From positions 1 through 20,690 of the IMG/VR virus record IMGVR_UViG_3300024999_000468: a DNA stretch of 20,690 nucleotides. One strand, given 5' to 3'. The notes beneath the pieces are model-generated. The model was not told the origin of the DNA and made no database searches. It worked only from the letters and a program-made list of their open reading frames with translations. This document shows positions 353 through 18,613 of the stretch, one piece after another. How positions within the stretch are numbered: the first letter of the stretch is position 1; the number at the start of each line of letters is the position of its first letter. This stretch comes from a virus. A program made the translations under genes and the position numbers.

Positions 353-2059
353 CTACCTTATTCGTTTTAGTTTGTAGAGAATGCCGAATCCGTAAAACTG
401 AGAAGGAATAGAGTCACTTCCTATTTTCACTCTAAAGTAATTATCTTTCCGGAAAATAGTTTGAGATTCTTGACCAGGAGAGGATTGACCACCCCATAGT
501 TTACCCCACAGACTATTGGGACCCCATTCCATATATCCATTAGCAGTTCCTACCATCAGTTTCTCTCCATAACCAACCTTGTCTGTACCAAACTGAACAT
601 ACAGGCTATCGCTAATCGTTTCTTTCCGGTAATAAACAAATATCTTTCTAATCTTCTTCAGTTGACTACGACTACCCATATCGAAGTCCTTGCCGACAAC
701 GAACGAGCTAATTATCACTCCGTTAAAGCTCTTACTCATCCCGAACTGCATCGTTCCTTTTATTGTTCCAAAAAGAAGTTTATTGGCAGTTGTTACTAAG
801 AATGATTTCGGGGTATCAGGAAAAACATACTTCGTGAAGTAGTTCCTTCGATAATCGTAAACAAAGACGGACTTTCCGATCTTCAGCCAATACCTTCCGT
901 CATAGTCAACGCTAATAGGAGATGACTCATTAATCAGAAGACTCTTAATCCTCATTCCGACAGGAACAATACTCCGTTCATCTTGAACCAGTGTAGGTTG
1001 GATTTGATAGAGGTCGTCAACACCCATAAAAATTATGTTGTTATCTAGGAGTTGGATTGTGTCAGGATACGGGCACCCTCGACTATCGTTAATCGTCTTG
1101 AAGTTCCACGAAGACGGTTCGCCATCTACGGAGAGCATTTGAATTGAGCGTTCCTTTAGAATTACAATCCAATCATTTAAAACTTTTATACCTGTAATCC
1201 TGTCCCCGCCATCGTTACAGATAATGTAATTCGCCAATGGAAATACTTCAGGCTTATTCAGCTTAGAGAAGTAAAGGAATGAACCTTGTGCCAAGAACAA
1301 ACGGTTCTTATGTTCTAGGATGTAGCTCGATTTAATTGGAGGATCATTATCAGTCTCTAACGCATTCCCAATAATAAGAGAACTTCCAGCCATGTTGTCG
1401 GTATACGTTGTTGTTGTGTTGTCTGCAATTTCGGTTAATAACCAAATGCCAGTTGTGCTTCCGATGGTAGCATAAGCGTATATCCTTCGTTTAACAGCGT
1501 TTGAGTCGCCGATTGGTATATCTGTTAGGTCAACCTCTTTTAACGAAGGAGAGACAGTATTAGAGGCGGGTGAAGGATTACTTTCTTGTCCTCGATCATT
1601 TACGAAGGTTACGTAATATGATCTTTCCTCATTTGGTAATCCAGTTTCGGTAGACACTGTAGCCGTGCAGGTAGTTTCTGGTTTCTCTATTCCCCACACC
1701 GAGATAAAGCCATTCCATATAAAAGACGTTTCAACATTCGTACAGAACAACAAGTCTTGATACGTCTCAAAAGAAAGAAGCCCGACAATGCCAGACTTCA
1801 CTAAAGTTCCATCAATATATAATTTATCCGCTACCTGTTGAACGAGCTGTACGGTTCCGTCTCGCTTTGCGTAGTTGTATATCCTATCCGCCACTAAGGA
1901 GTCTATCGAGCTGTACCCTTCGCACGTTGCCGCCTGACCGGGAAGGAAGTCAATGTTCTGACAATCCTGTACCTCGTTATCATTTATCAAGTGCGGTTTG
2001 GCTCCGACGTTTAAGCCGCCAGACATATCCTTTACTTCATAAAGAAGTTTTTCTGACAT
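353..2059 (-). CDS. Tail nozzle / P22 gp10-like stabilisation protein
   Basis: A 568-residue, mostly beta-rich protein with no signal peptide or membrane segment. The N-terminus carries the pattern SGGLNVGAKPHLINDNEVQD followed by N-I-D-F and a G-Y motif, typical of podovirus tail nozzle or stabilisation proteins such as the P22 gp10 family. A fibronectin-like stretch (SYYVTFVNDRGQESNPSP) lies near residue 150. Repeated W/F-x-F-x-V blade-like segments fill the middle (RITGIKVLNDWIVILKERSI, NIIFMGVDDLYQI). In P22-type tails this protein closes the channel below the adaptor, and here it directly follows the adaptor gene. The ATG at 2059 overlaps the adaptor stop as TAATG with AGGTGG upstream; the GTG at 2065 is the alternative. 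Family assignment is from motif recognition and gene order. Confidence 0.75.
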   Translation of the reverse strand: MSEKLLYEVKDMSGGLNVGAKPHLINDNEVQDCQNIDFLPGQAATCEGYSSIDSLVADRIYNYAKRDGTVQLVQQVADKLYIDGTLVKSGIVGLLSFETYQDLLFCTNVETSFIWNGFISVWGIEKPETTCTATVSTETGLPNEERSYYVTFVNDRGQESNPSPASNTVSPSLKEVDLTDIPIGDSNAVKRRIYAYATIGSTTGIWLLTEIADNTTTTYTDNMAGSSLIIGNALETDNDPPIKSSYILEHKNRLFLAQGSFLYFSKLNKPEVFPLANYIICNDGGDRITGIKVLNDWIVILKERSIQMLSVDGEPSSWNFKTINDSRGCPYPDTIQLLDNNIIFMGVDDLYQIQPTLVQDERSIVPVGMRIKSLLINESSPISVDYDGRYWLKIGKSVFVYDYRRNYFTKYVFPDTPKSFLVTTANKLLFGTIKGTMQFGMSKSFNGVIISSFVVGKDFDMGSRSQLKKIRKIFVYYRKETISDSLYVQFGTDKVGYGEKLMVGTANGYMEWGPNSLWGKLWGGQSSPGQESQTIFRKDNYFRVKIGSDSIPSQFYGFGILYKLKRIR

Positions 2060-3576
2060 TACCACACCACCTGCGCAAATGATGGTTGCAAGGCTCCGTT
2101 AACTTGATCAATCATCAAATCTTTTTTCTTCTCAAACGCTTTTTCAAGGGTTGCTGCTTCCTGTAGTTTACCCTTAGATTGCTTGTACCTCATGGCGGCA
2201 TACAAAACTAAAGCATAATGAGAACTAACAGGAACGTCCGTGGGTAAATCAGAGGCATTGACCAGGTAAGTAGGTTTCCGGTAATAAAACAAATCGACAG
2301 TTCCATCTAATGGATCATCGCGGAATATAATATTTCCACCCCAAATATCAAATGGTAATGCAATTTCCGTAATAGATAAACAGTTGGACGGAATTGGATA
2401 GCTCAACGTACCTGCGACCGTTGTTATTTGCGAAGTTGTCTCAATTCCCAAATCGTTTGTCAGCTCGTTAATTCCGTCATTCAGCCATTCTTTTGCAACG
2501 TCCCACAATACAACATCTTCTACCAGTTTATTAAGCCTAGATAACAGCGTATTGTCAGTAGAGGCTTTCTTTGATTTCCTATCCCGAACGTATTGAATTA
2601 GCAGCGTCTTTTTATTTGAAAATTCTTTTTCAAAGGAAATAGCTTGGTCAAAGTCCTTCTCGGATTGCTTGTACCGCATTGCCGCATACAAAACAAGAGC
2701 GTAATGGAAATTAACCGGAATGTCAGCAGGTAAGTCTTGGACATTTACAAGGTATCCTGGTTTTCGATGATAATAAATAGTTGCTGTGCCGTTGCCGGGA
2801 TTATCATAGAAAACAATATTACTCCCCCATGTATCGAACGGTTTATCCGCTTTAACAACCGAAATACAATCAGAGGGAATTGGATACGACATAACACCTG
2901 AAGTTGTGACTATCTGCGCCGATGTTTCGATATCCAGCTCGTTTGTTAATTCATTAATGCCGTCATTCAGCCAACCCTTTGCGATATCCCACAGGACAAT
3001 ATCTCCTACTAACTTATTCAACGATGACAACAGAGTATTTCCAGAAGCCTCTTTCAGTTTCTTCGCCTTGATATATTCGATCAGTAGAGCTTTCTTTTTC
3101 TCGAAAGCCTTCTCGAATTCCTTAGCTTGCTCGAAGTCATCCTCTGATTGCATATAACGCATCGCAGCGTAAAGAGCTAATGCGTAATGTGCGTTACTTG
3201 GAACATCTGCTGGAATATCATAAACAGTCGCTAAGTACAATGGTTTTCGATAATAGTAAAGGTTGAATGAGCTATTGCCTGGATCGCCATAAAGGATAAT
3301 ATCCGTTCCCCATGTGTCGAAAGGTAAATCGGCCTTGTAAATAGATTGACAATCGAGGGGTATAGGGTAATTCAGGGTTCCGGCAGTAGTTGTAATTTGA
3401 CTTTTTGTTTCAATCTCAAGGTAATTAGCTAATTCGTTAATGCCATCGTTGAACCACTTAACGGCATCCGACCATAGTACCGTATCGCTGATAAGCTTAT
3501 TAAGCGCATCAAGAAGTGTCGTGCCGTCTGTTATATTTATCTCCTCAGTTGCTATGTCAGCCCCATATGTAGGCAT
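2059..3576 (-). CDS. Head-tail adaptor with three tandem adaptor domains
   Basis: A 505-residue protein made of three complete copies of one domain, at about residues 20-180, 181-342 and 343-505. Each copy runs in order: TLLxxLNKL helix, W-NDGINEL helix, I-E-T strand, a YPIP-x-x-C turn, PFD-x-W, a YYxRKPxYL strand, then HYALxLYAAMRY-x-QS and a charged E-K-rich helix. By hand count over 150 ungapped positions the copies are about 62% (1 v 2), 62% (2 v 3) and 59% (1 v 3) identical. The pattern fits the SU10/P22-gp4-like adaptor family, whose members I know as single-domain proteins of about 150-200 residues that form a 12-mer under the portal. Its place before the nozzle gene supports this. The start is ATG with AAGGTGGTG upstream. 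Confidence 0.75.
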   Translation of the reverse strand: MPTYGADIATEEINITDGTTLLDALNKLISDTVLWSDAVKWFNDGINELANYLEIETKSQITTTAGTLNYPIPLDCQSIYKADLPFDTWGTDIILYGDPGNSSFNLYYYRKPLYLATVYDIPADVPSNAHYALALYAAMRYMQSEDDFEQAKEFEKAFEKKKALLIEYIKAKKLKEASGNTLLSSLNKLVGDIVLWDIAKGWLNDGINELTNELDIETSAQIVTTSGVMSYPIPSDCISVVKADKPFDTWGSNIVFYDNPGNGTATIYYHRKPGYLVNVQDLPADIPVNFHYALVLYAAMRYKQSEKDFDQAISFEKEFSNKKTLLIQYVRDRKSKKASTDNTLLSRLNKLVEDVVLWDVAKEWLNDGINELTNDLGIETTSQITTVAGTLSYPIPSNCLSITEIALPFDIWGGNIIFRDDPLDGTVDLFYYRKPTYLVNASDLPTDVPVSSHYALVLYAAMRYKQSKGKLQEAATLEKAFEKKKDLMIDQVNGALQPSFAQVVW

Positions 3577-3591
3577 ATTTTCACCACCTTA

Positions 3592-5571
3592 TTAGATAGT
3601 TGTTATAGTTTGATATTCCCAATGCCACACTCTTGGGTGAAGAACACCCGGTGGGTCATAATATTCCTCAACATCCGTAACCTGCCAAGCATTTAATAAT
3701 TCCCCCGAGCCAGTTACTTCTCCAATAATGAAACGAGGATTATCAATAGGGTCTTGCCAAGTGTAATACACAATCTGAAATGGACTATTGTTCTCGATAT
3801 CTAATGTAAATCCTACTTGATCAAGGATGTCTGCATAATCTGCAGAAATAACTTGCAACCAAATTCTACCTTCTATTATTGGGGAATTAAGAGGGTATTC
3901 GTTTGCTATTTCGTCAATTATCCACGAGTAAGTTACGCCTCGTTCATCTCCTGTAATTATTAACTTGCCAAACATTCTTTCGTTAATATTTCCATACAAG
4001 TAAGGATCTCGCTGGTCTGGCTCCTTTGGATTATACGAGCTTATGGTTAATTTCGGCGCGGAATCATCGTATGAAACTATTACAATAATGAAATTCCAAG
4101 TAGGTTCTAGCGGAACGGGTGAGCGACTAGCAACAATTACTCCTATTAGGAATCCGTTTTTAAAATCAGTGCTCACGGAGACGGTACTGCTCTCGTATTC
4201 TACTTTCGTAGAGAGTGGTTTCGAATACCCTGTGTTAAGGCCTAATTGATACCCTAATTCGTAGTCTGATAGATTCACGACCGAATTGGATACATACGGA
4301 GAAACCGTCTGAATTTCAGCAGTTACAACATCCACCACAACCGTTGTTCCAGACTGAATGCTTGGGTTTTGAAGGGTAATCGACGACACTACGGATGGCT
4401 GAATAACATTTACCGAAATTGGTGTATCCGTAAGCTCCACGGCATAGATACTAGACGTACTTGACAATGTGTCAGTGTACCCATTTTGGGCCACAGATAG
4501 GACGAATATCATATATGACGTCCCATTAACAATTGGTTCCCCTGATATAGTCGTTAGGTATTGAGAAAGAGTTAATACATGTTGTACGCCGTTTCCGCTC
4601 TTTGGAACAGAAACATAGAAATCACTAGACAACGAAGATGCCATACTTTGGGTAAAAGCCGTGTATTCAGCCAATGTTGAGACGAATATTCTGTACTCAT
4701 AAATATTTGTCTCATCGGTAGCAGATGTAAATCCATACTGTATATCACGGGCATCATTAAAATTGCTAACATCAGCCCTTGAAAGGTAAGTGGCAGCAGG
4801 AACGTTATTCGTTAGAGTTAAGGGAAAGTCTGATATAGAAAAACTAGACACTCCATCAAGACCTACGGATTGAATTATTGCGTTATAGGAAATACCATTA
4901 GCGATAGCATTACCGTTAACATCTTGAATAGTGGATGTTAAATCAACAGTATGAAAGCTTCCTGAAATTCCCTTGGTTGCCGAAACGAATTTCGGAGAAG
5001 TTAATGATAATATAAAATCGCCAGTTATGGTTGCTATATCACTAGTCGGAGCTACGCAAACCTTATAATAAGCTATATTCGAATTAAACGTTGGTTCCCT
5101 GAATGTTATCCTAATGTCTGAAGCATTCCCATTATTACCGATATCGTACATCTTGGTAACGCCGCTATTCGGTGCGGCGCAGTTCGTAACAAGTGTAAGC
5201 GCATTAGATGGGAGAGTAATTCCATTATCATAACCATTTCTCCCAACGCTTAATACGAAGGAAACGTAAGAAACACCCGCCGTTATAACGTTTCCGCTAT
5301 AGTCTTTTGAAGTTGAAAGGTATGATACATTGCGAAGAATACCATTGCCATACTCGCTTAATATTGAGGTATAAAAGGTAGTGTCTGATATTGCACTAGC
5401 TACGGATAAGGTGAATAATCCAACATCTGACTCAGGGACTATAAAAACCCTGTACTCCGACACATTAGTTTGAACAAAAGGAAAATAAAAGTGAGCCATT
5501 AAATCCCTAGCGTCACCATTATTGCTAATGTCTTGGATTTTCAAGATAGTACATAAAGGCGCGGTAGGCAT
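3592..5571 (-). CDS. Large virion protein with three Ig/FnIII-like repeats
   Basis: A 659-residue beta-rich protein. The first about 375 residues hold three repeats of about 115-120 residues. Each opens with a D-I/V-x-N-x-x-D/N-A-x-D-I motif (near residues 14, 142 and 268), then an EYRVFIV-like strand, and ends with a GxSYxxFVLSVGxxGY-like strand, as in fibronectin or Ig-type folds. The remaining about 280 residues form a different region with a GYQLGLNTGYSK segment and a tryptophan-rich C-terminus (WHWEY). No enzymatic motif is seen. It lies upstream of the adaptor and nozzle genes in the same operon with AGGGGTGATA before the ATG. It is probably an exposed head or tail decoration or host-attachment protein, but that is inference. 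Confidence 0.65.
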   Translation of the reverse strand: MPTAPLCTILKIQDISNNGDARDLMAHFYFPFVQTNVSEYRVFIVPESDVGLFTLSVASAISDTTFYTSILSEYGNGILRNVSYLSTSKDYSGNVITAGVSYVSFVLSVGRNGYDNGITLPSNALTLVTNCAAPNSGVTKMYDIGNNGNASDIRITFREPTFNSNIAYYKVCVAPTSDIATITGDFILSLTSPKFVSATKGISGSFHTVDLTSTIQDVNGNAIANGISYNAIIQSVGLDGVSSFSISDFPLTLTNNVPAATYLSRADVSNFNDARDIQYGFTSATDETNIYEYRIFVSTLAEYTAFTQSMASSLSSDFYVSVPKSGNGVQHVLTLSQYLTTISGEPIVNGTSYMIFVLSVAQNGYTDTLSSTSSIYAVELTDTPISVNVIQPSVVSSITLQNPSIQSGTTVVVDVVTAEIQTVSPYVSNSVVNLSDYELGYQLGLNTGYSKPLSTKVEYESSTVSVSTDFKNGFLIGVIVASRSPVPLEPTWNFIIVIVSYDDSAPKLTISSYNPKEPDQRDPYLYGNINERMFGKLIITGDERGVTYSWIIDEIANEYPLNSPIIEGRIWLQVISADYADILDQVGFTLDIENNSPFQIVYYTWQDPIDNPRFIIGEVTGSGELLNAWQVTDVEEYYDPPGVLHPRVWHWEYQTITTI

Positions 5572-5583
5572 TTTATATCACCC

Positions 5584-6018
5584 CTACGGTGTAGATATCA
5601 GGAACATTCCTGAAGTAAACCATGTTATTAAGAAATTTGTAGCAGTTGAAGAAAGGTCGCTTCCGAAGTCAACATATCCAATAAGTAAAGATGTTGAATC
5701 CGTTCCAGTAGAGATATAAATCACGGCATATCGAGCAGTAATAGTAGACGTTCCCCACACTACATCGTCAGCATCAAGCTTTACTATGTTAGAGTCGGGC
5801 AAATAACTTATAGTTTTATTAGCTAAGGTTATTCCTCCTGCTGTATATGCAGTTCCGACAACCTCGTTAGTAACACTTGATTTGTAGATATGAGTATCCT
5901 GATTAGGAGAGTACCCTGAAGTACAAAGCATCACCTTAATTGTGTCTGTGTTCCAATCAACCTCTTTATTCAACGCTTTTAGTAAGAAGTTTCCGTACAT
6001 CTTTGATGTTATTGCCAT
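5584..6018 (-). CDS. Conserved-type phage virion protein, unknown role
   Basis: A 144-residue protein with no membrane segment. It opens MAITSKMYGNFLLKALNKEV and continues with D-T-I-K-V-M-L-C. Its middle has AYTAGGITLANKTISY and D-A-D-D-V-V-W-G-T-S-T-I-T-A-R-Y-A-V-I-Y. I recognise this layout from small proteins found in the tail regions of many phages; they have no assigned enzymatic role and probably form a compact beta-rich virion component. The gene follows a 76-residue ORF and precedes the Ig-repeat gene by 12 bases. The start is ATG with GGGGGTGTC upstream. Family recognition is moderate; function is unknown. Confidence 0.65.
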   Translation of the reverse strand: MAITSKMYGNFLLKALNKEVDWNTDTIKVMLCTSGYSPNQDTHIYKSSVTNEVVGTAYTAGGITLANKTISYLPDSNIVKLDADDVVWGTSTITARYAVIYISTGTDSTSLLIGYVDFGSDLSSTATNFLITWFTSGMFLISTP

Positions 6019-6043
6019 TCAGACACCCCCATAAATAAAAAAG

Positions 6044-6274
6044 TTAAGCAACCGAAACAACTCTTCCGCTATCACTAGTCATACCCGTAATATTCCCACT
6101 TTCATCCTTCACCCATATCCATACTTCATCCACGGTATCCTTTGTTACAGTAACACCCGTCGATGAATACGTTAATGACATTTCCATAACAATCGGACAA
6201 TCAATATTCTCAACAATTGTTGTCCCGATCGACATTCCTATTATTAATCCTTCTTCCCAATCCTTTGAAACCAT
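6044..6274 (-). CDS. Small hypothetical protein (76 aa)
   Basis: A short protein opening MVSKDWEEGLIIGMSIGTTI, followed by beta-rich sequence with alternating T/V residues (YSSTGVTVTKDTVDEVWIWV). I do not recognise a family. There is no signal peptide, cysteine pair or catalytic motif. The gene starts 3 bases after the stop of the 107-residue gene; the GGAGGG of its ribosome binding site overlaps that stop, which suggests translational coupling. Its position between virion genes makes a small structural or accessory virion role likely, but this is inference from context. Confidence 0.55.
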   Translation of the reverse strand: MVSKDWEEGLIIGMSIGTTIVENIDCPIVMEMSLTYSSTGVTVTKDTVDEVWIWVKDESGNITGMTSDSGRVVSVA

Positions 6275-6277
6275 TTC

Positions 6278-6601
6278 TTAACCCTCCGTTGTTCTGGTTA
6301 TAGTATATGTTCTCTCTCCCCTCGTCATGGAATCTATCCTAGTCTGAGAATCCCTTGTTATTGCCCACGACTCCTGCTCTCCATCCCTGAATATGTCAAT
6401 CGTCGCTTCTCCTATTACAACCTGAACATTAGTTGGTGGAGTAGTAGAAATGTTGTTTACCTCTTCAACAGTTTGGGTTAATAGAGTTTCAACTGCCACG
6501 ATTGCATCCTGAACATCGTTAATGTCTTGAGAAAGAATAGGGCTAATATGGTCTATTTTCGTTGTGAAGGAGTCTATTTGGGCAGGGTATTTTGTGGTCA
6601 T
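6278..6601 (-). CDS. Small phage structural-region protein (107 aa)
   Basis: The N-terminal half has the pattern TTKYPAQIDSFTTKIDHISP, then S-Q-D-I-N-D-V-Q-D-A-I-V-A-V-E. This is a helical motif I recognise at the N-terminus of many podovirus tail-region proteins, where it begins longer fibers or stands alone. The C-terminal half (residues about 60-107) is short and beta-like (VQVVIGEATIDIFRDGEQES). It is the first gene after the terminator at 6727-6766. AAGGCGGCGATAAA precedes the ATG. A structural or linker role is likely; no enzymatic function is seen. Confidence 0.6.
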   Translation of the reverse strand: MTTKYPAQIDSFTTKIDHISPILSQDINDVQDAIVAVETLLTQTVEEVNNISTTPPTNVQVVIGEATIDIFRDGEQESWAITRDSQTRIDSMTRGERTYTITRTTEG

Positions 6602-6625
6602 TTTATCGCCGCCTTAAAGTAGGAT

Positions 6626-6642
6626 GAGGGGTGCGGCCCCTC
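6626..6642 (-). other. GC-rich intercistronic hairpin
   Basis: GAGGGG at 6626-6631 and CCCCTC at 6637-6642 form a perfect 6-bp stem with a 5-base loop, just upstream of the 107-residue gene. There is no adjacent T-run. It resembles the GAGGGG/CCCCTC hairpin after the capsid gene (10160-10177). A role in mRNA end protection or processing is inferred. Confidence 0.5.
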
Positions 6643-6726
6643 TGTTGATTGAGGAAGTCTTAACAGCATAATTGTTTTAAATCTTTTGGACATTCATCTA
6701 AATAAATAAAAAAATACCCATACAAT

Positions 6727-6766
6727 AAAAAGAGAGGGTATAAAAAATATACACCACCTCTTTTTT
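6727..6766 (-). terminator. Rho-independent terminator, possibly bidirectional
   Basis: AAAAAGAG at 6727-6734 pairs with the CTCTTTTT tract that begins at 6758. TATA arms inside the structure close an A-rich loop, with an imperfect middle. Runs of A on one side and T on the other mean that either strand would end its hairpin with a U-run. It sits in the gap after the tail-collar gene and before a new run of virion genes. The minus-strand late message would be at least partly interrupted here. Confidence 0.6.
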
Positions 6767-6811
6767 GTTAATTTTTATATTTCAACAATCCAGTCTTTAG
6801 CGAAGATCGAT

Positions 6812-7297
6812 TTAATGCTTAATCATATAGTTCAGTGCAATGTAAGGTTGCAAATTATTATGTGCTAAACCGCCTCCTGCGGAAGACGTCCAATACTGGC
6901 TATTCCCAGTATCAAGTCCTGAATAATTAGAAAATATGTCATTCTCGTCATAAGTAGTTCTGGTATAGCCTTGTACATAGTGACTGTGGCTAGGCATTTG
7001 TTCAGTCGTAAGCGCATGTGTTTTCGCTCCTCCTGTCTTGCCTAATGTATCAAATTCTGTTTGCTCCACGTCTAACCCAAGTGGTACTCTGCCTTTTAAA
7101 TTTGGTAAGTTAAAGGTAGTAGAACCATCTCCAGCACCATAACTATTTCCAATCACATCAAATAATGCTGAATATATTGTTCTGGATACTGCTGATCCAT
7201 CACAAATCAACCATCCCCAAGGGGCAGTTAGCCCGGCATGTATTCGAATAAAACCAGGGGCAATAGCGCCTATGCCCTGAGGGGGACAAGTGTGCAT
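6812..7297 (-). CDS. Phage tail collar domain protein
   Basis: A 161-residue protein of the phage tail collar / microcystin-dependent-protein type. The family signature is clear: WGWLICDGSAVSRTIYSALF, then GNSYGAGDGSTTFNLPNLKG and R-V-P-L-G. A histidine-rich stretch follows (KTHALTTEQMPSHSHYVQGY), and it ends NNLQPYIALNYMIKH. The collar domain covers about residues 18-100 and the C-terminus resembles short-tail-fiber tips. Such proteins form trimeric spikes or fibers that contact the host. The start is ATG at 7297 with a strong AGGAGGAG site 5-6 bases upstream. The gene stands slightly apart from its neighbours, with stem-loops on both sides and a 12-bp direct repeat flanking it (6794-6805 and 7398-7409). 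Confidence 0.85.
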   Translation of the reverse strand: MHTCPPQGIGAIAPGFIRIHAGLTAPWGWLICDGSAVSRTIYSALFDVIGNSYGAGDGSTTFNLPNLKGRVPLGLDVEQTEFDTLGKTGGAKTHALTTEQMPSHSHYVQGYTRTTYDENDIFSNYSGLDTGNSQYWTSSAGGGLAHNNLQPYIALNYMIKH

Positions 7298-7381
7298 ATT
7301 ATACTCCTCCTACCAAAGCACCATAATTTTTATACTCTCCGTCTGTCGAACAATGGGTCTAATACGACATAGCTTTATACA

Positions 7382-7410
7382 CCTTTCGCTATTTGCATCT
7401 TTAGCGAAGG
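7382..7410 (-). other. Stem-loop after the hydrolase gene
   Basis: CCTTTCGCTA near 7382-7391 pairs with TAGCGAAGG at 7402-7410, with one bulged base and a loop of about 10 bases. It starts directly after the hydrolase stop codon on the minus strand. The T-run expected of an intrinsic terminator is absent (TGTATAAAG follows), so it may be a weak terminator or an mRNA 3'-end stabiliser. Confidence 0.4.
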
Positions 7411-8289
7411 TTAAAACGAAAACCTTAGCGAATCGCCTATTCTTTCGTAAGCATTTGTTACTAACGCTAATTCAGTTTCGCTGATTTTGACGTATGCCCT
7501 TATAAATTGCCTTAAATCATTACCTACTTTTATTTTAACGCTCGGTACTTCATTGATAAAAGTTGAAAGATAAGAGAATACTTCTGCTAAAAATACTGTC
7601 TCGCTTAAATCACTATCATGTGCTCCTCCCTCAACAATTCTTACCTCAACATTGTTATTACCCGCTAAAACATTAACTCCATCCCTAAAGCCTGTAGATT
7701 GATTGGGATTTACTACTACATCTAGGCTACCGTGCCATATTTGCATGTGTAGATCGGCATCGGCGTAATCCTGAAATCTACTCCAAGGGTTATATCCAGA
7801 CGTTAACACTGCGTAAGTATCCGAACTGCAACCAAACGCCGTATTGATTTCGCTTGAAAAATCAGTATTCCCTGTTTTTGGTTGATAAGGAGCGTCTAAA
7901 TCACTTTCCGGATAAAGTGCTACTATGCATTTATAATTAACAGGGTATCGAACAAACGAATTTAGAGCGATTAATCCACCCATGCTATGACCAACTAGAA
8001 TTGCTTGAGACTCGACATTATAATTTTCTTTAATGTAATTATAGACGGTTAAATTATTGTCTATAGATACTTGATTTCCCCAAGCATTTACACCCGTCAT
8101 TGGAGCGACAAATACATATCCATGTGTGACGAAAGTATTAATTATTTCATCCCAGTTGTCTGTAGTCACGTCCACTCCAGTACCATGCTCAAATATTACC
8201 CATTTGCAAGGAGTGTCAACCGACGAGTAGTTGGCCGGTGTTTCAAAGATAGTGTCGTATCCTCCAATCGAAATATGACTGTGTGCCAA
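7411..8289 (-). CDS. Tail-associated alpha/beta-hydrolase (putative esterase/depolymerase)
   Basis: A 292-residue protein with an alpha/beta-hydrolase core over residues 1-245. Visible elements are an oxyanion-type HGTG at 35-38, the nucleophile elbow G-H-S-M-G-G with Ser102, a probable acid Asp190 in WHGSLD, and His224 in GGAHD. The arrangement is close to PHB-depolymerase/lipase-like hydrolases. The last about 45 residues form a separate small region (VKIKVGNDLRQFIRAYVKIS, then a second V-x-N-A-Y-x-R-I-G-D unit) that resembles short beta repeats at the ends of phage tail proteins. No signal peptide is present. Lying between lectin-like and collar genes, it probably cleaves ester groups on host surface polymers from the virion. 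The start is TTG at 8289 behind GAGGGGG. The substrate is unknown. Confidence 0.75.
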   Translation of the reverse strand: MAHSHISIGGYDTIFETPANYSSVDTPCKWVIFEHGTGVDVTTDNWDEIINTFVTHGYVFVAPMTGVNAWGNQVSIDNNLTVYNYIKENYNVESQAILVGHSMGGLIALNSFVRYPVNYKCIVALYPESDLDAPYQPKTGNTDFSSEINTAFGCSSDTYAVLTSGYNPWSRFQDYADADLHMQIWHGSLDVVVNPNQSTGFRDGVNVLAGNNNVEVRIVEGGAHDSDLSETVFLAEVFSYLSTFINEVPSVKIKVGNDLRQFIRAYVKISETELALVTNAYERIGDSLRFSF

Positions 8290-8300
8290 AATACCCCCTC

Positions 8301-9101
8301 CTATATTTCCGTATATTGGGTTATTTTCATGCTACCGAAAAATAAGTCCGTGAATACATCCCCCCATGATAACCAAATTGGATCTGGATAACTTACAGCA
8401 TTTGCCCATAAAATAGCACCTGTGTCTCCCAAGATAGTTCCAGACGCATCAAGCAATTGAAGTTGGAAAGATGTAGTCGTGAGTATAAACTTTGCTTTAT
8501 AAGTTGTATTAAGGGCCACTGATATAGTAGCAACTAACACATCAGCATTGCTAGCGTTTTTGTAATACACCTTGACTTGATTGCCACCACTAAAAGCAAT
8601 CCAGCATAGTATGTTTTCAAGATTTGAAGTAGTTTTTAATGTTGGGGCAATCGCTTTTTGTTCGATATACAAGGGATATAAGTAATTACTCGCTGTTTGT
8701 GCCGTGACTTGGAAATCCTCTATTATAGTTGCGCTGTCTACGCCTTTAGTAAACCCTTTTTTGCGATAAGTTAAAGTCCCCTGCGTTGCTAAAGTAGAAC
8801 TAATTACCAATCCAGAACTTCCTTCTACAGCACTCCCGCCCGAAACAACGGTTCCGAATTTATCTGCATCCAACGATGAGTCATTAAACTTGTCGTCAAC
8901 TACAAAAGGAGTGAATATATCTCCGTAAACAATAAATAAATCGCCTACACTCATTACTGATCTATCATCAACTGTCGGGTTAACATTGCTATGAAAAACA
9001 CGTGGTCTAGATAAAATTTCTTCTATTTGGTTCGCATTCTCTGCCTTATCCGACAGATACTGTGCAGGAGTTACATCTCCCTGTGGAGGCGATTTAACCA
9101 T
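8301..9101 (-). CDS. Putative lectin-like (LamG/ConA fold) virion protein
   Basis: A 266-residue protein. Residues 1-60 are polar and helical (YLSDKAENANQIEEILSRPR), perhaps a virion anchor. From about residue 66 the sequence D-D-K-F-N-D-S-S-L-D-A-D-K-F-G, followed by alternating beta strands, looks like a concanavalin-like jelly-roll: W-I-A-F-S-G-G near 165, then K-V-Y-Y-K, and a LQLLDASGTILGDTGAILW segment. Such folds bind glycans and are common in receptor-binding proteins. The gene lies 11 bases upstream of the hydrolase start, so binding and cleavage of a surface glycan by the two products is plausible. The start is ATG with GTAGGGGGG upstream. The fold call is by eye and tentative. Confidence 0.55.
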   Translation of the reverse strand: MVKSPPQGDVTPAQYLSDKAENANQIEEILSRPRVFHSNVNPTVDDRSVMSVGDLFIVYGDIFTPFVVDDKFNDSSLDADKFGTVVSGGSAVEGSSGLVISSTLATQGTLTYRKKGFTKGVDSATIIEDFQVTAQTASNYLYPLYIEQKAIAPTLKTTSNLENILCWIAFSGGNQVKVYYKNASNADVLVATISVALNTTYKAKFILTTTSFQLQLLDASGTILGDTGAILWANAVSYPDPIWLSWGDVFTDLFFGSMKITQYTEI

Positions 9102-9102
9102 C

Positions 9103-9456
9103 TTAAATCCCCCCTACCCAGTTGATTTGCACGGTCGCCCCAACAGATAGTTGGAGGTTATATGCAATACCTGCCACTAATAAGATATCAAACGCATATA
9201 GATTACCAGCTTCTAAGGCTATGCCACCGTTAAGTTTTCCCATCACTCCATCAACTTCCAAGGATAGTACCCCTGTTGTATTTGTCTGCACCATGAGGGT
9301 TGATTTTTGATAGACTGCAGGCGTGTAGTCCGCAAAGATATCCGTATTGGCGAGTACGGCTATGTTTTTTCCGCGCTTCGCTAAACTCCCAACTATCTTA
9401 GCCGGAACAGCATTTTCCACGCTATAAGCATTTCCAAACTCATCATGTAACACCAT
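9103..9456 (-). CDS. Hypothetical virion protein (117 aa)
   Basis: A beta-rich small protein opening MVLHDEFGNAYSVENAVPAK, with a hydrophobic segment (YAFDILLVAGIAYNLQLSVG) near residues 88-107 that looks like beta strands rather than a membrane helix. I do not recognise a family. It overlaps the end of the preceding 78-residue gene by 14 bases and is separated from the following lectin-like gene by one base, so the three are probably co-translated. An AGGGGG site precedes the ATG. A small head- or tail-attached beta-sandwich is a reasonable guess only. Confidence 0.6.
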   Translation of the reverse strand: MVLHDEFGNAYSVENAVPAKIVGSLAKRGKNIAVLANTDIFADYTPAVYQKSTLMVQTNTTGVLSLEVDGVMGKLNGGIALEAGNLYAFDILLVAGIAYNLQLSVGATVQINWVGGI

Positions 9457-9679
9457 TTTTACTTTTCCCCCTCTTAGAAACAGAAAGAGCGGTCGTATCC
9501 TTCGCGATTGGACGCGCCCGCACCTTTGGTTTCTGCTGAATTTGTTCTGGCTTTTGTTTTTGCTTAATTTCCTTTTGCTCTAATAATTGTTCGAGCAGCT
9601 TTGTTTGTTTGCGTAATTCGTTCAGGAGATCGTTTTTATACCTGTGTTCTGGACTGACTTCGTTTGAAAAATGATCCAT
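9443..9679 (-). CDS. Small coiled-coil protein (78 aa), unknown
   Basis: A highly charged, Q/K/E-rich protein. Residues about 14-45 (DLLNELRKQTKLLEQLLEQK) show heptad spacing of leucines, suggesting a coiled coil. The C-terminal third is basic and proline-containing (KPKVRARPIAKD). There are no cysteines and no membrane segment. It lies just after an intercistronic hairpin pair whose lower stem includes its own ribosome binding site (GGAGGG, ATG at 9679). Similar small coiled-coil proteins in this place in phage genomes may connect fibers to the head or assist assembly, but no function is established here. Confidence 0.55.
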   Translation of the reverse strand: MDHFSNEVSPEHRYKNDLLNELRKQTKLLEQLLEQKEIKQKQKPEQIQQKPKVRARPIAKDTTALSVSKRGKSKNGVT

Positions 9680-9682
9680 AAA

Positions 9683-9716
9683 CCCTCCGTAGTGAGGGAG
9701 GGAGATTAATCCCTCC
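9683..9716 (-). promoter_or_regulatory. Two overlapping, mutually exclusive hairpins over a ribosome binding site
   Basis: Hairpin one pairs GGAGGG (9697-9702) with CCCTCC (9711-9716) across 8 bases. Hairpin two pairs CCCTC (9683-9687) with GAGGG (9694-9698) across 6 bases. They share bases 9697-9698 and cannot both form. In minus-strand RNA, hairpin two buries the GAGGG that serves the gene starting at 9679. This may tune translation of that gene; the pairing is seen, the role is inferred. Confidence 0.4.
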
Positions 9717-9721
9717 TGTAT

Positions 9722-10150
9722 TTAGATATCGGAAGAAATGCGAGTAACCTCTGACCCTGCGTTGTTAACCTGAACCATTGCTGTCTTAGATGCCGCTATC
9801 GTAATAGCTGAACCGCCAGCTACCTTAATTAAGGCTGCTGCTCCTGAATCGGCATTAACTACAACATAAAGTTTGCCAGGCATAGCAACGGGAACGATGA
9901 TAGCATTCGTGGCATGTCCTGTGCTGACCTCAAGTCTTGTATTAAGGGCTTGGGCTGCGGTCATGGTTAATGCGGCGGTTCCAAGATTTATTGCCGCTAA
10001 GACTTTGAAGTCGCCAGAGGAATTTCCTTCAACGTCTCCGGTAACATTGCCGACCACATTGCCTGTGACGTTTCCTGTTAGCGGCCCGGTAACGCCTTCA
10101 GGAGCAGAGATAGAACCAAAGTTTGTTGTTCCTATGATAAACACCTCCAA
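9722..10150 (-). CDS. Putative head-fiber-like protein with GN repeats
   Basis: A protein of about 137-142 residues. Near the N-terminus is a repeat of the form G-N-V-T/V-G (PLTGNVTGNVVGNVTGDVEG), which is common in trimeric phage fibers. The rest is beta-rich (KLYVVVNADSGAAALIKVAG, then A-S-K-T-A-M-V-Q-V-N-N-A-G-S-E-V-T-R-I). It follows the major capsid gene, as head-fiber genes often do. The start is unclear: the open frame has TTG at 10150 and GTG at 10144, but the good GGAGGTG site lies at 10142-10148. The codons at correct spacing after it are ATC (10138) and ATA (10135), so initiation may be at a rare codon. The coordinates given are the outer limit. Confidence 0.6.
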   Translation of the reverse strand: MEVFIIGTTNFGSISAPEGVTGPLTGNVTGNVVGNVTGDVEGNSSGDFKVLAAINLGTAALTMTAAQALNTRLEVSTGHATNAIIVPVAMPGKLYVVVNADSGAAALIKVAGGSAITIAASKTAMVQVNNAGSEVTRISSDI

Positions 10151-10211: not shown

Positions 10212-11093
10212 TTATCCGGCACTTCCAACGAACATACGCCAATTCTCTATGGCAGTACTGTGTCTAAAGTAGCCCTGCCACACCCAACTACCGTTAGGAC
10301 GCATCTTGTCTTCGCGCTTAAACTCAGGCTTTACGCGGGAATAATGAACTAACTTGTGGCGAGTCCCTTGGAGGAACCACGCCGTTTGTGATGCCATAAA
10401 GTCAAGCTCAACCAGCTCAAGAGCTGGCAAGACGTTCTTGTCATTGTTGGCAGTTCCGGCAACTTGCGAGGATTGAAGGATTGTAAGTGCAAGGAATTGT
10501 TTGGACTGGTGAACAATCAACTTTTTAGCACGACTTAGAATCTGTTTCCCTGCCTCATCCTTCTGTTGGCGGAAGAGAACTAAACCACTCTTGAGGGTAG
10601 CATCCGACAACGCTCCGGTATGAAGGTTTGTCTGCGTTCCTCCACCTTCACCACGGTTAGGATGAGAAGCTGAACAAAGCGGCACGCCATCGTATTGATT
10701 GGTGGTAAACGCTCCATCAAGGACAAGGACGTTTTCGGACTCAAGGGTTTCACGCCCGGCGTGTCCGGCATCGCGGGTCATGCTCTCAACTTCTTTGTAT
10801 TTCGAGTCCTCTACTTGCTCGCGGGACATAACGATTTCGACAGCAAACGGTTGATGGGTGGTTGTGATGATGTCGCCGAGCTTGAACTTTTGTTCAGTAG
10901 GGTTGGCAAGCTCATCTTTCTTACCCCATTTTCCGATACCAGCAATGTTTTGAGTTACTTCGGCATTTTGGGTAGAACTTTCATTTTGGAGATATTTGGG
11001 CCATTGCTCAGGTTCCTCGTCCCAAGCCTCGAAAAATGCTCGGTCAATCTTTTTGAGGTAAAGGTTGTCAAACTGTTGTGTATTCATTGGCAT
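10212..11093 (-). CDS. Major capsid protein (Mu gpT-like)
   Basis: A 293-residue protein resembling Mu gpT-type major head subunits, which build the icosahedral shell. It opens MPMNTQQFDNLYLKKIDRAF and has the segments PFAVEIVMSREQVEDSKY and TLESENVLVLDGAFTTNQYD. The characteristic D-G-V-P-L-C-S-A-S-H-P-N follows at about residues 134-145, and a late V-L-P-A-L-E-L-V-E-L-D-F strand precedes the C-terminal WVWQGYFRHSTAIENWRMFV. It follows the scaffold and decoration-like genes, which is the normal order. AGAGAGG lies 9 bases before the ATG at 11093. No N-terminal propeptide or insertion domain is obvious. The role is secure from order and motifs; the exact subfamily is less sure. Confidence 0.85.
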   Translation of the reverse strand: MPMNTQQFDNLYLKKIDRAFFEAWDEEPEQWPKYLQNESSTQNAEVTQNIAGIGKWGKKDELANPTEQKFKLGDIITTTHQPFAVEIVMSREQVEDSKYKEVESMTRDAGHAGRETLESENVLVLDGAFTTNQYDGVPLCSASHPNRGEGGGTQTNLHTGALSDATLKSGLVLFRQQKDEAGKQILSRAKKLIVHQSKQFLALTILQSSQVAGTANNDKNVLPALELVELDFMASQTAWFLQGTRHKLVHYSRVKPEFKREDKMRPNGSWVWQGYFRHSTAIENWRMFVGSAG

Positions 11094-12510: not shown

Positions 12511-12930
12511 TTATTTCGTTATCTTCCAATCTTCTGCCAAGATATCAGTAATGCTCGGAACCCATGTGTTATATTTACCAGTGACATTAAATAGCAACAG
12601 GCAATCATTGTTTACCTGTATGTTGTCAGGGGTATAGAGCTTAGTTCGAGTAACGTGCATGTTTTTTCCATTCCATCCTTCACGTTCCACGCAAAAACCC
12701 TTTCCTGTTGCCTCAATAGCCAAGCCAAATGTCATCCCGTCTGTTTTTCGATACGCTTCATCGAAAACACTTTTAGGCGACCACGATACATATCCATCAG
12801 GATAAACAACCTTATATCCTTCCGTTCCCCGTGTAGCAGGAATGACTTTGTTGTGGTTGTGGTTTTCGTTAAAATCATGTATAGTCATGGGTTCTGCTTC
12901 GATAATTTTTACACCAATATATTTATTCAT
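12511..12930 (-). CDS. Tad2-like (DUF2829) putative anti-Thoeris protein
   Basis: A 139-residue two-part protein. Residues 66-138 match the DUF2829/Tad2-like domain: MTFGLAIEATGKGFCVEREG, W-N-G-K-N-M at 86-91, then LLLFNVTGKYNTWVPSITDI with the family ending L-A-E-D-W. The known Tad2 proteins sequester the cyclic ADP-ribose signal of the Thoeris defence system. Residues 1-62 form a second module often joined to it in phages (KYIGVKIIEAEPM, then GYKVVYPDGYVSWSPKSVFD). The ATG at 12930 overlaps the upstream stop as TAATG; an ATG at 12936 is the alternative. The gene sits among late head genes and is followed by a terminator. Many DUF2829 proteins have not been tested, so anti-Thoeris activity is inferred from family. 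Confidence 0.75.
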   Translation of the reverse strand: MNKYIGVKIIEAEPMTIHDFNENHNHNKVIPATRGTEGYKVVYPDGYVSWSPKSVFDEAYRKTDGMTFGLAIEATGKGFCVEREGWNGKNMHVTRTKLYTPDNIQVNNDCLLLFNVTGKYNTWVPSITDILAEDWKITK

Positions 12931-13079
12931 TAACATTTTCCGCCCTTCTTGCTTCCTTTCTTTGCGCCCTTTCCCTTCATCGGCATCGGACCGCCTTTCA
13001 TCATCGGGATACCCATCATCATACTTGCAGATTCTTTTGGTTTTTTCGTTGGTTTCTCTTCGGCATTATTATTTACCAT
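12930..13079 (-). CDS. Tiny basic Met/Gly/Lys-rich protein (49 aa)
   Basis: A small ORF that I read by hand. It begins MVNNNAEEKPTKKPKESASM; methionine- and glycine-rich sequence follows (MMGIPMMKGGPMPMKGKGAK) and it ends in lysines with a final cysteine. It overlaps the end of the metallopeptidase-like gene by 11 bases and its stop overlaps the start of the Tad2-like gene (TAATG), so it fills that interval exactly. Low-complexity basic proteins of this kind occur near phage portal and scaffold genes, with unknown role. The AGAAGGG site is very close to the ATG, which makes the start uncertain. Confidence 0.5.
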   Translation of the reverse strand: MVNNNAEEKPTKKPKESASMMMGIPMMKGGPMPMKGKGAKKGSKKGGKC

Positions 13080-13446: not shown

Positions 13447-13706
13447 TACTTATACCATCCTTCGCTTAAATGGGTCTTCAGTTTGTGCGTTTTTTCTTTA
13501 GGGGTAAACTTTCCACATGATGGACATAAAATGCCGTTCTCATGCCAAAATGCAAGCCGCTCGCAGGAGCAGACAGGCTGATTCAAGGCACGAATCCTTG
13601 GGTCCCCAAACATCCCTTGTGTCCTTAAAAAACTCCCAATCAAGGGATCACCACTTAACGAGTGCAACCAATATCTTTCTTCCTGCGCTGTCATTTCATG
13701 TGGCAT
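13446..13706 (-). CDS. Small zinc-ribbon protein (86 aa)
   Basis: The protein carries C-S-C at residues 46-48 and C-P-S-C-G at 61-65, a four-cysteine zinc-ribbon spacing (C-x-C...C-x2-C). The N-terminus is helical (MPHEMTAQEERYWLHSLSGD) and the C-terminus is basic (PKEKTHKLKTHL). Start and stop both overlap neighbours as TAATG (13706 with portal, 13446 with the metallopeptidase-like gene), so it is probably translated by coupling to portal. Phage zinc ribbons may bind nucleic acid or protein; which applies here cannot be told. Confidence 0.65.
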   Translation of the reverse strand: MPHEMTAQEERYWLHSLSGDPLIGSFLRTQGMFGDPRIRALNQPVCSCERLAFWHENGILCPSCGKFTPKEKTHKLKTHLSEGWYK

Positions 13707-15583
13707 TATCCCACGCCCCTATACGATGATAATATCTTGCTTATTTGTCCTTGCCGACCGCTCATGTTGTCGGGATTAGGAATAGGCATTTGACCAGGTA
13801 TCTGTCCGGGCATCATTGGTTGACCGGGCATTCCGGGCATTCCGGGCAACTGCGGTTGAGAAGCGTTCATATCATCCTCTAATGGCAATCCAACCTCTGT
13901 TCGCAGGTACTCCCTGAATTCTTTCCATGTGATGACAGAGCGACCGTCGATGATTGCCTTAGACAGCTCTGCAACCGTCTGATACATAAACGCCTTATCG
14001 GAAGGAAGTCCGTTGCCCATAGATAAAGAGAGGTCTAACTGAACCTCCCTTGTCATTTGATTTCCATCGTCGTCCTCTAATGGCTTGATGAAATGCTCAT
14101 ATTCTCCTGGAATTGGTATTCCACTTTCGTCCAACATTTGTCTTTGATCCGGTATCATTTGTGGGACGTTACTCAACTTCGAGGGGTCATAGAACCTGAA
14201 GTCCGGCTTCTCTCCGCCAACTCTAACCCACATTTCTGTATCCCAGTTGGTGATAATCTCATCCATTATCAGTTCGAGAACGTCACGCCAGCCTGTCTTA
14301 AACATTTCTGCCTTATGAGTTACACCCTTTTGGCCTTCCTGCTTAATAGCCATGATAGCACTTGCCGCTCTTACTGCGCCGTAACTTTGCTCGAAGCTAA
14401 TATCAGTCCTGCCAGATATGACATTAGCCTCCATGAACCCTTTTTCACGACGATTTATGATGTCGGATGAGACGCTTTGGGGTTCCACTACTCTCCAAGC
14501 GTTGATGTCCCTCATTGGAATGCGTAGTCCAGGCATGTTTGTCCATTTACGATAATCGAATGATCTTCCAGCCCCCATGCCAACGACTATTTGCGGATTG
14601 CCCATAAGTCGAGCTGTGATCCTGATATTATCATCCATGTCATTGATAACATCTTGAACAGGAATAAGCATTTCGATGTCCGATTGGCCCCAAATCTGTC
14701 CTCGTTGGATATAACAAGGGATAACAACAAAAGGATATACATCCCTTCTGTTAACCTTCTTGCCCTTCAGGACTTCTCTTGAGTCCTCTAGGAGAATATG
14801 GTTGGCGACATGTAGGCAGTACATCGAACCGTCTTTATCCTTCATGTAGCACTCAAGGAGCAATGCCTTTTCGCTCGTTGTTACCTCTGTTTCGTCTGCA
14901 CCTTGATCTTCGAATATCTCAGGGTTATACGGAACAGATACTTCGCGCACAACATACTTGCCCTTATCCGGCCATTGCTTACGAAACCATGATAAGGGAC
15001 GCGGTACGGCATGAATCATAAATTCACATTCTTGGAGTAGGTGGGCTGTCTGTACCTTTGGGTCAGGGAAGTAATTCGCAGGGCTTATAGGCTCGAATAT
15101 CGGAAGCCCTCTTCCGCCTAAAGTATCATGATCAAAGTATACCTTCATTATTGTTGTGCCAAGTTCTAGCCTGTCATGCTCCGACTGATTGAGCTTAATC
15201 TTGAATCGATTACGGTCGAGTACAAATTCAAGCATGTGCTTTGATTGCTCGGAGAGCATATGGTCTGATGGCTCCCAGCCCTTTGCTTCCACAGAGGAAG
15301 GTTTGTCCACTAGGTCGGCAATCATAGCCTCAATGATAGGATGAATGATGTTCGTTACACTTCCGGGGTCTATTTCGCTAGTTGGAGGATTCTGCCTGTT
15401 GTGTTTGTAGTCGTCGCACTTCTTCCATATCTCTGACTTTCCAAGTTGTTCTTTTGCATTGTAGGAAGCCGTGAATAACTCCTGTACCCTTGCGGCTAGT
15501 GCTTTTTCTTCTTTTGTTTGGATAATTGACTCTGGATTTCTTATTTTAGAGTCTATTACGTCAATTGGTTTGTCTTTGTCCAC
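13706..15583 (-). CDS. Portal protein (P22-type)
   Basis: A 625-residue portal, the size of podovirus (P22 gp1-like) portals, which form the 12-subunit ring for DNA passage at one vertex. Recognisable parts are the N-terminal helical region (ALAARVQELFTASYNAKEQL), V-T-N-I-I-H-P-I-I-E-A-M-I near residues 80-92, and the wing-stem region with ERLELG-like sequence (SEHDRLELGTTIMKVYFDHD). The crown side carries Q-D-V-I-N-D-M-D-D-N-I-R near residues 310-321 and the clip side LELIMDEIITNWDTEMW. The last about 45 residues are rich in P, G and M, ending in a helix. The start is GTG at 15583, four bases after the previous stop. It is followed by overlapping TAATG starts. Confidence 0.85.
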   Translation of the reverse strand: MDKDKPIDVIDSKIRNPESIIQTKEEKALAARVQELFTASYNAKEQLGKSEIWKKCDDYKHNRQNPPTSEIDPGSVTNIIHPIIEAMIADLVDKPSSVEAKGWEPSDHMLSEQSKHMLEFVLDRNRFKIKLNQSEHDRLELGTTIMKVYFDHDTLGGRGLPIFEPISPANYFPDPKVQTAHLLQECEFMIHAVPRPLSWFRKQWPDKGKYVVREVSVPYNPEIFEDQGADETEVTTSEKALLLECYMKDKDGSMYCLHVANHILLEDSREVLKGKKVNRRDVYPFVVIPCYIQRGQIWGQSDIEMLIPVQDVINDMDDNIRITARLMGNPQIVVGMGAGRSFDYRKWTNMPGLRIPMRDINAWRVVEPQSVSSDIINRREKGFMEANVISGRTDISFEQSYGAVRAASAIMAIKQEGQKGVTHKAEMFKTGWRDVLELIMDEIITNWDTEMWVRVGGEKPDFRFYDPSKLSNVPQMIPDQRQMLDESGIPIPGEYEHFIKPLEDDDGNQMTREVQLDLSLSMGNGLPSDKAFMYQTVAELSKAIIDGRSVITWKEFREYLRTEVGLPLEDDMNASQPQLPGMPGMPGQPMMPGQIPGQMPIPNPDNMSGRQGQISKILSSYRGVG

Positions 15584-17717: not shown

Positions 17718-17965
17718 TATAGATTCGCCTTCCTTGACCTCTTGAATCTAATCAGACCCTCACCTTGTACGGAACGAAGTTCCTTAATCACGTAATCTTC
17801 TCCACTTATAGTTTCGTTGCTCTCCACTAGCGATACAACGAACACACCATTATCCATAATAACCGCGTATTCATCGCCTACTTCCATATCCCGTATTAGC
17901 TTATGATTATGGCGAGCAAGGATACCAATTGCAATATGAGGATCAACATACTTTTTCTTAGGCAT
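17717..17965 (-). CDS. Small hypothetical protein (82 aa)
   Basis: An 82-residue protein: a basic start (MPKKKYVDPHIAIGILARHN), a beta-rich centre (DEYAVIMDNGVFVVSLVESN) and a basic end (RFKRSRKANL). I do not recognise a family; there is no cysteine or membrane segment. The ATG at 17965 is chosen because AAGAAGGTG lies 6 bases upstream; a GTG at 17974 would lack this. It overlaps the preceding GIY-YIG-like gene by 8 bases, so it is co-translated in the early part of the packaging operon. A nucleic-acid-binding role is possible from charge alone and is only a guess. Confidence 0.6.
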   Translation of the reverse strand: MPKKKYVDPHIAIGILARHNHKLIRDMEVGDEYAVIMDNGVFVVSLVESNETISGEDYVIKELRSVQGEGLIRFKRSRKANL

Positions 17966-18611
17966 TAACCACACCTTCTTTCACAGAGGTATAGTTATGC
18001 TTTCTTTTTAGTTCGTTAATCTTATCCATCACGCAATCATCCGGTCTAAACCACTCTCCGTTAAGCCTAGAGCCTTCAAATTGACGATAGAATATCTTCT
18101 CGGTGTACTCGTTGCCTGGTATCATTACCAATATCCTTAAAGTGTCCGGATATCCGGTTTGCAGTTCCTTGAGTCTTCTTTGTGGATTAACCGAATATCC
18201 AATCTTTATTGCTCCGCCAAGCTGTCCTTGGATAAAGTAAATATATCCTTTGTACCTCGGCTTCTTTCCTTTTGAATCACTGTCTTTTTCCACTTTAGCG
18301 CGACAGTCTATTTCTTTCCTAAGACGCTCAACTCTTACGACCTCGTTTTTCTTGTTCCAATACTCGGTCCATCTAGGATCGTCTTTTCTCCACGACCACT
18401 TATTGATTTCGTTTTCCAAGATACTCATAAAGCGGCGGTCATTTTTAAAAGAGTTAAGCTTGTCTTGGCTTCTCCAAATACCAAAGCTTATTCCTTTTTC
18501 CGTGTGACCTTCCTGCTCAAGTCTTTTTAAGAACACCTTAATCTTTGCGTCTATTGGAATTCCCAATACACCAATAAATGCTTGGCTGTAAGTCGTAACT
18601 CTATTAGGCAT
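17958..18611 (-). CDS. T5orf172/MUG113 GIY-YIG-like protein
   Basis: A 217-residue protein. From residue 122 it shows the T5orf172/MUG113 variant of the GIY-YIG nuclease fold: G-Y-I-Y-F at 122-126, A-I-K-I-G-Y-S near 134-140, P-Q-R-R at 143-146, a helix with E171 (T-E-K-I-F-Y-R-Q-F), and G-E-W-F at 185-188. The N-terminal 100 residues are helical and charged (GISFGIWRSQDKLNSFKNDR) and of unknown type, perhaps DNA binding. The family includes nucleases and homing-type endonucleases. Many phages carry one near terminase, where it may act in DNA cutting or site entry. The ATG at 18611 has AGGAGG upstream; TTG at 18617 is the alternative. Activity is inferred. Confidence 0.7.
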   Translation of the reverse strand: MPNRVTTYSQAFIGVLGIPIDAKIKVFLKRLEQEGHTEKGISFGIWRSQDKLNSFKNDRRFMSILENEINKWSWRKDDPRWTEYWNKKNEVVRVERLRKEIDCRAKVEKDSDSKGKKPRYKGYIYFIQGQLGGAIKIGYSVNPQRRLKELQTGYPDTLRILVMIPGNEYTEKIFYRQFEGSRLNGEWFRPDDCVMDKINELKRKHNYTSVKEGVVNA

Positions 18612-18613
18612 AA

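Follow-up and report, generated by a model that had tools for sequence, protein, structure and literature searches.

The rings of the phage neck are a classic case of symmetry mismatch, in which a 5-fold vertex, a 12-fold portal and a 6-fold nozzle meet. In SU10 and T7 the adaptors form a dodecamer between the 12-fold portal and the 6-fold nozzle, and one nozzle subunit rests on two adaptors (PMC9509320; PMC6702177). How might such a ring be built when three adaptor domains are encoded in a single reading frame? The question is raised by a gene within positions 1 to 20,690 of the IMG/VR virus record IMGVR_UViG_3300024999_000468, the whole of which was analysed and is referred to here as the window (20,690 nucleotides).

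A tandem adaptor gene with three intact domain copies

The adaptor reading frame lies on the minus strand, with its ATG at 3576 and its stop codon at 2061-2059, and its 505 aa product is composed of a 19-residue leader followed by three gap-free domain copies of approximately 161 residues each. The parts of the gene are as follows.

2059..3576, minus strand: tandem head-tail adaptor gene, three SU10_adaptor domains (505 aa; PF24175 match)
3520..3576, minus strand: N-terminal leader, residues 1-19 (MPTYGADIATEEINITDGT), present once (alignment of relatives)
3037..3519, minus strand: adaptor copy 1, residues 20-180 (identities to relatives; AlphaFold2; Foldseek)
3037..3069, minus strand: junction 1-2, KAKKLKEASGN, residues 170-180, taking the place of a free C-terminal tail
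2551..3036, minus strand: adaptor copy 2, residues 181-342 (identities to relatives)
2551..2586, minus strand: junction 2-3, RDRKSKKASTDN, residues 331-342 (copy alignment)
2062..2550, minus strand: adaptor copy 3, residues 343-505 (identities to relatives)
2062..2106, minus strand: free C-terminal tail, residues 491-505 (QVNGALQPSFAQVVW), in the last copy only

Local alignments between the copies scored 535, 459 and 513, against a maximum of 53 among 200 shuffles, which bears out the initial annotation, where three full, gap-free copies of about 160 residues had been described. The identity of 59-62% counted there by hand was about right, the computed values over 153 gap-free columns being 61% (copies 1 and 2), 58% (copies 1 and 3) and 61% (copies 2 and 3), and the NDGINEL, YPIP and HYAL.LYAAMRY motifs are, as had been claimed, preserved in each of the copies. 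We detected no start codon inside the gene that has a Shine-Dalgarno match and, since the frame is open, one polypeptide is predicted. A single frame encodes the three intact SU10-adaptor domains, with a free N-terminus and a free C-terminal tail occurring once each. The leader has nearly the same sequence in an alignment with one- and four-copy relatives. The last copy closes with a type of tail that also closes single-domain relatives, and its end is identical to that of one of them (L005) at 12 of 20 positions, compared with 4 of 20 for copy 1.

In the window, as in its relatives and in SU10, the adaptor gene belongs to a head-tail module, where it lies downstream of an SU10-type portal gene and a head protein gene and beside fibre and nozzle genes. 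The putative nozzle gene is directly downstream and overlaps the adaptor stop codon. The neighbouring genes are listed below.

353..2065, minus strand: putative nozzle / stabilisation protein (PHROG 511 and 3287; weak tblastn match to 'phage stabilization protein')
3592..5571, minus strand: putative fibre gene adjoining the adaptor gene, 659 aa, with three internal repeats of ~125 residues
6044..6274, minus strand: small protein with the N-terminal motif KDWEEGLIIGMSIGTT, which is common to fibre-like genes adjoining the adaptor gene in relatives
10212..11093, minus strand: major head protein (PF10124, PHROG 371)
13706..15583, minus strand: portal protein, the expected ring partner (PF23899 SU10_portal, E 1.5e-13)

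No counterpart of the putative fibre gene at 3592..5571 was found in the relatives; its repeats are beta-rich by look, and the count of three may be a coincidence, or the gene may indeed encode a fibre. Between the head protein gene and a gene at 6278-6601, the window carries an extra cluster (6812-10150, minus strand) that is absent from the relatives and includes, besides unknown ORFs, a phage tail collar protein (6812-7297) and an alpha/beta hydrolase (7411-8289); these may be receptor-binding or depolymerase parts. A protein with a Tad2-like anti-defence domain (12511-12936, minus strand; PF11195, E 2e-18; PHROG 872) is encoded inside the structural module, between the portal gene and a scaffold-like gene, and is 86% identical to its equivalent in one-copy relatives and 72% in the four-copy relative. 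A protein with a T5orf172/MUG113 (GIY-YIG-like) domain (17958-18617, minus strand) lies between the terminase genes.

Each third is an SU10-type adaptor domain

The window protein matches the Pfam family SU10_adaptor (PF24175) with an E-value of 1.4e-44 and 153.3 bits, the curated cut-off being 27 bits. The six matched stretches form pairs of an N-part and a C-part, one pair per copy. When domain sequences were tested singly (alignment A5), 12 of 12 matched PF24175, window copies included, and SU10 gp11 matches the same model. Checked against other families, every third of the protein proved to be SU10_adaptor, and no non-adaptor family emerged.

AlphaFold2 gave a confident model for copy 1 with twelve related domains in the alignment (pLDDT 86.1), with predicted helices at residues 21-29, 35-50, 127-144 and 148-178 and strands within 56-110, which is the helical bundle plus beta (fibre dock) domain of the adaptor fold. 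The whole triple chain was predicted poorly (pLDDT 55.7). When the copy 1 model was searched with Foldseek, the top solved structures were the neck adaptors of LME-1, N4, cyanophage A4, crAss001, DEV, KHP30, SU10 and KP32, with TMq values of 0.60-0.67 for SU10, 0.64 for KHP30, 0.60 for N4 and 0.58-0.59 for crAss001; the T7 adaptor (8e4g) was a weaker match (TMq 0.54, E 0.23).

Sequence searches of the PDB with the window adaptor returned chance matches only, and hhalign comparison of the shallow domain profile (A5) was not significant against the single sequence of SU10 gp11 and revealed no similarity to that of P22 gp4. The window adaptor has no match to P22_Tail-4 (PF11650), the model that P22 gp4 itself matches. 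The initial description of the domain as 'SU10/P22-gp4-like' thus stands for SU10, on the PF24175 and fold matches, and applies to P22 only at the level of fold class. Together these results show that each third of the window protein is an SU10-type adaptor domain.

Close relatives carry one or four copies at the same locus

A search for other tandem adaptor proteins, suggested in the initial annotation, led to four-domain proteins of 666 aa in close viral-contig relatives (L002, L003 and L004); in others (L005-L010) the same locus encodes one domain of 182 aa. In the relatives and the window alike it lies between fibre genes and the nozzle gene. The four-copy gene is identical in the three assemblies, and the three-copy form was seen in a single contig only. 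One adaptor domain is present in L012 and L023, which are less closely related. The L012 adaptor bears an 85-residue N-terminal extension (5060-5314, plus strand) in which no partial adaptor domain was recognisable, and the same contig has an IS605/TnpB-like ORF, named by look, between the head protein and fibre genes (1117-2235, plus strand). In L002, two tandem paralogous repeat-rich proteins (5892-7972, plus strand), propeller-like by look, share the same N-terminal motif.

The neighbours vary little around this locus. The putative nozzle is about 89-91% identical whether the phage has one, three or four copies, the portal is 82-83% identical between the window and its one- and four-copy relatives, and the major head protein is 80-83% identical across relatives. 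A separate single-domain adaptor gene, which the initial annotation had named as evidence against a fused adaptor, did not appear: no second SU10_adaptor gene is present in the window, in a 66.5-kb four-copy contig or in one-copy contigs of 52 kb and 65.8 kb. Copy numbers of 2, 5 and 6 were sought through nozzle, head-protein and portal searches and none was found, nor were relatives recovered from the phages and plasmids collections (protein query) or from genome_contigs (domain and nozzle profiles). Two BFVD models of roughly twice the usual length, A0A6J5Q433 (402 aa) and A0A5Q2W8Q5 (410 aa), are adaptor-like structural matches and may be two-domain adaptors.

History of the copies

Copy 1 of the window is 86% identical to the L005 single-domain protein and 88% identical to copy 1 of L002. 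Copy 2 is 73% and 72% identical to copies 2 and 3 of L002, and copy 3 is 73% identical to its copy 4, so that conservation between the lineages is lower for copies 2 and 3 (72-73%) than for copy 1 (88%). The dN/dS of copy 1 is 0.05, indicating purifying selection. In the tree, a group with support 95/98 unites the first copies of the window and four-copy proteins with the close single-domain proteins, and another joins the last copies of both tandem proteins (support 97/96). A separate duplication in the window lineage was rejected (p-AU 2e-81). The simplest history, in which duplication followed divergence from the single-copy relatives and all tandem copies make up a clade separate from the single-domain proteins, was disfavoured without being formally rejected (p-AU 0.058).

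Along most of the chain the single-domain proteins look like copy 1, but at 15 of 20 and 12 of 20 positions their final 20 residues are identical to the last copy, compared with 4 of 20 for copy 1. This pattern fits the collapse of a tandem gene when its first copy recombined with its last, and it fits equally well an ancestral end that was retained by the last copy. The copies would have arisen by tandem duplication in an ancestor common to the window phage and the four-copy phages, and copy number was probably altered later by recombination between them.

A proposed pseudo-symmetric ring of twelve domains

We propose that the adaptor of this short-tailed (podovirus-like) phage is a tandem fusion, and that one ring of twelve domains is assembled in this group from 12 x 1, 4 x 3 or 3 x 4 chains, a stoichiometry that we infer and a reading to which we give a probability of about 0.7. 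All domains would lie side by side in a single ring on the portal, whose 12-fold symmetry is assumed from the family. Four triple chains would supply the twelve domains of a pseudo-12-fold ring of real 4-fold symmetry, and the relatives would use twelve single or three quadruple chains. One face of the ring would meet the portal and the other six nozzle subunits, each placed over two adjacent domains as in SU10 and T7. The four-chain ring had already been put forward in the initial annotation, and it is well supported by the one- and four-copy relatives with their nearly unchanged neighbours: since the partners stay constant whether a chain has one domain, three or four, it is simplest that all domains enter the same ring. 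The numbers 1, 3 and 4 are all divisors of twelve, as such a ring demands; with three states only, the agreement could be chance.

Segments likely to contact the partners point the same way. The putative nozzle-facing D.VLW loop that joins helices 1 and 2 and the putative portal- or fibre-facing YPIP and YYYRKP segments, whose facing is assigned by analogy with T7 and SU10, are kept in every copy with small changes. This is expected if all copies meet the same partners, although such conservation may reflect folding rather than contacts. No alternating A/B signature was seen in the four-copy protein. The short Lys-rich junctions (KAKKLKEASGN and RDRKSKKASTDN) would substitute for the free C-terminal tail in all copies but the last. 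Because the tail is present on the last copy only, a fused ring would carry four tails (triple chains) or three (quadruple chains), not twelve. Should the free tail be what embraces the portal, two in three positions of the triple ring would be without it, a testable cost of fusion.

A different use of the same chain can be envisaged, in which one domain, probably copy 1, forms the 12-mer and the other two hang outside it or are stacked in additional rings, so that the neck is longer or decorated. Copy 1 is the copy most conserved between lineages and the one that clusters with the single-domain proteins (95/98), and the faster divergence of copies 2 and 3 would also suit such an arrangement. 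We nevertheless consider it improbable, because a nozzle and portal that are nearly unchanged at one, three or four copies are hard to square with a longer or crowded neck, because all copies retain the putative nozzle-facing loop and portal-facing motifs, and because the junctions are short.

Cleavage at the Lys-rich junctions, turning a polyprotein into single domains that form an ordinary mixed 12-mer, appears less probable still. In its favour, every domain is complete and the junctions are charged and probably exposed, but the freed copies 1 and 2 would be without the C-terminal tail that is present in all close single-domain relatives, and no dedicated maturation-protease gene was recognised among the ORFs scanned, a subset of all; weak protease matches (PHROG 133/4523) belong to the head protein. 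That the three-copy form occurs in a single contig might suggest an assembly artefact or a decaying duplication. This can practically be dismissed. The copies are 57-63% identical in DNA, too far apart for a recent duplication, and reads would tell them apart, making assembly duplication very unlikely; the frame is open with its motifs intact, and three assemblies agree exactly on the related four-copy gene.

Possible fibre docking on unequal domains

Each long fibre of SU10 is docked on a pair of adjacent adaptors (PMC9509320). Within the ring model, which this idea would extend and not strictly replace, the fused copies might have specialised, such that unequal domains create two or three kinds of docking site for several fibre types in fixed ratios. 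A fibre spanning two adjacent adaptors, as in SU10, would meet the pairs (1,2), (3,1) and (2,3) in a 4 x 3 ring, giving three kinds of site, and the pairs (1,2) and (3,4) in a 3 x 4 ring, giving two. Switching between 12 x 1, 4 x 3 and 3 x 4 within one phage group would then pattern the ring, and each virion might bear several types of fibre whose ratio and order are fixed, an idea that we regard as possible and on balance doubtful.

Fibre-like genes with the motif KDWEDGF..GIAVGST number one in each close single-copy relative in which the fibre region was seen, and two, as paralogues, in the four-copy phage; the window has one short form in addition to other fibre-like genes, including the extra cluster with its hydrolase and collar protein. 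The match between these counts and ring patterning is suggestive at best, given that there are three independent states only, that fibre genes vary widely among phages in any case, and that the anchor role of the motif is a guess. Divergence between copies is not clearly greater in the dock region than in the helices, and diversification of the dock region alone is not clearly supported by the copy comparison.

Comparison with known systems

The window adaptor resembles SU10 gp11 (PF24175; PDB 7Z47, 7Z4B, 7Z4F) in Pfam family and Foldseek fold, and the two phages have a comparable gene context of portal, head protein, adaptor, fibre and nozzle genes, with an SU10-type portal upstream. However, gp11 is a one-domain protein of 250 aa present as twelve chains per ring, whereas the window protein has three shorter domains in one chain, and there is no significant direct pairwise similarity between them. 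One domain per chain is usual in SU10_adaptor, if not required by the family, and the window protein departs from it with three. P22 gp4 (PF11650) and T7 gp11 are functional counterparts that form 12-mer rings between portal and nozzle; both are single-domain proteins, unlike the three-domain window adaptor, which is also without a P22_Tail-4 match.

Fusion of ring domains is known from other phage proteins. T5 pb6 has two domains per chain, so that a trimer stands for a hexamer, and ring-domain fusion also occurs in myophage hubs and type VI spikes (PMC5717097); HFTV1 BTC has fused ring domains with pseudo-symmetry (PMC12494034). The window adaptor likewise carries an internal duplication of a ring-forming domain in one chain, and as in T5 pb6 and HFTV1 BTC, duplication and fusion would lead to fewer chains and pseudo-symmetry, the chain number for the window being the one proposed above. 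The two known examples are two-fold fusions of another fold in six-fold tail rings, whereas in the window group three- and four-fold fusions occur in a neck adaptor whose ring is expected to have 12-fold symmetry, and the copy number varies among close relatives. In the open-access literature searched we found no description of a three- or four-fold fused dodecameric adaptor, in agreement with the initial annotation, which was aware of no triple adaptor, nor of an adaptor copy number varying among such close relatives. Fused pseudo-symmetric phage rings are thus already known, and what is new here is a natural 1/3/4-copy series at one locus.

The chain number of one ring has seemingly varied from 12 to 4 to 3 while its neighbours stayed almost unchanged. 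The series provides a natural example of ring-subunit fusion, and perhaps of different tail fibres at set positions. It also allows phages to be compared to learn whether tail assembly and DNA retention depend on true 12-fold symmetry, on twelve free C-terminal tails or on equal subunits. Sliding clamps offer a parallel, in that the same domain ring is made from chains that differ in domain number, PCNA from three chains of two domains and bacterial beta from two chains of three. The clamps differ between domains of life, whereas here the switch is found among phages with ~90% identical neighbour proteins.
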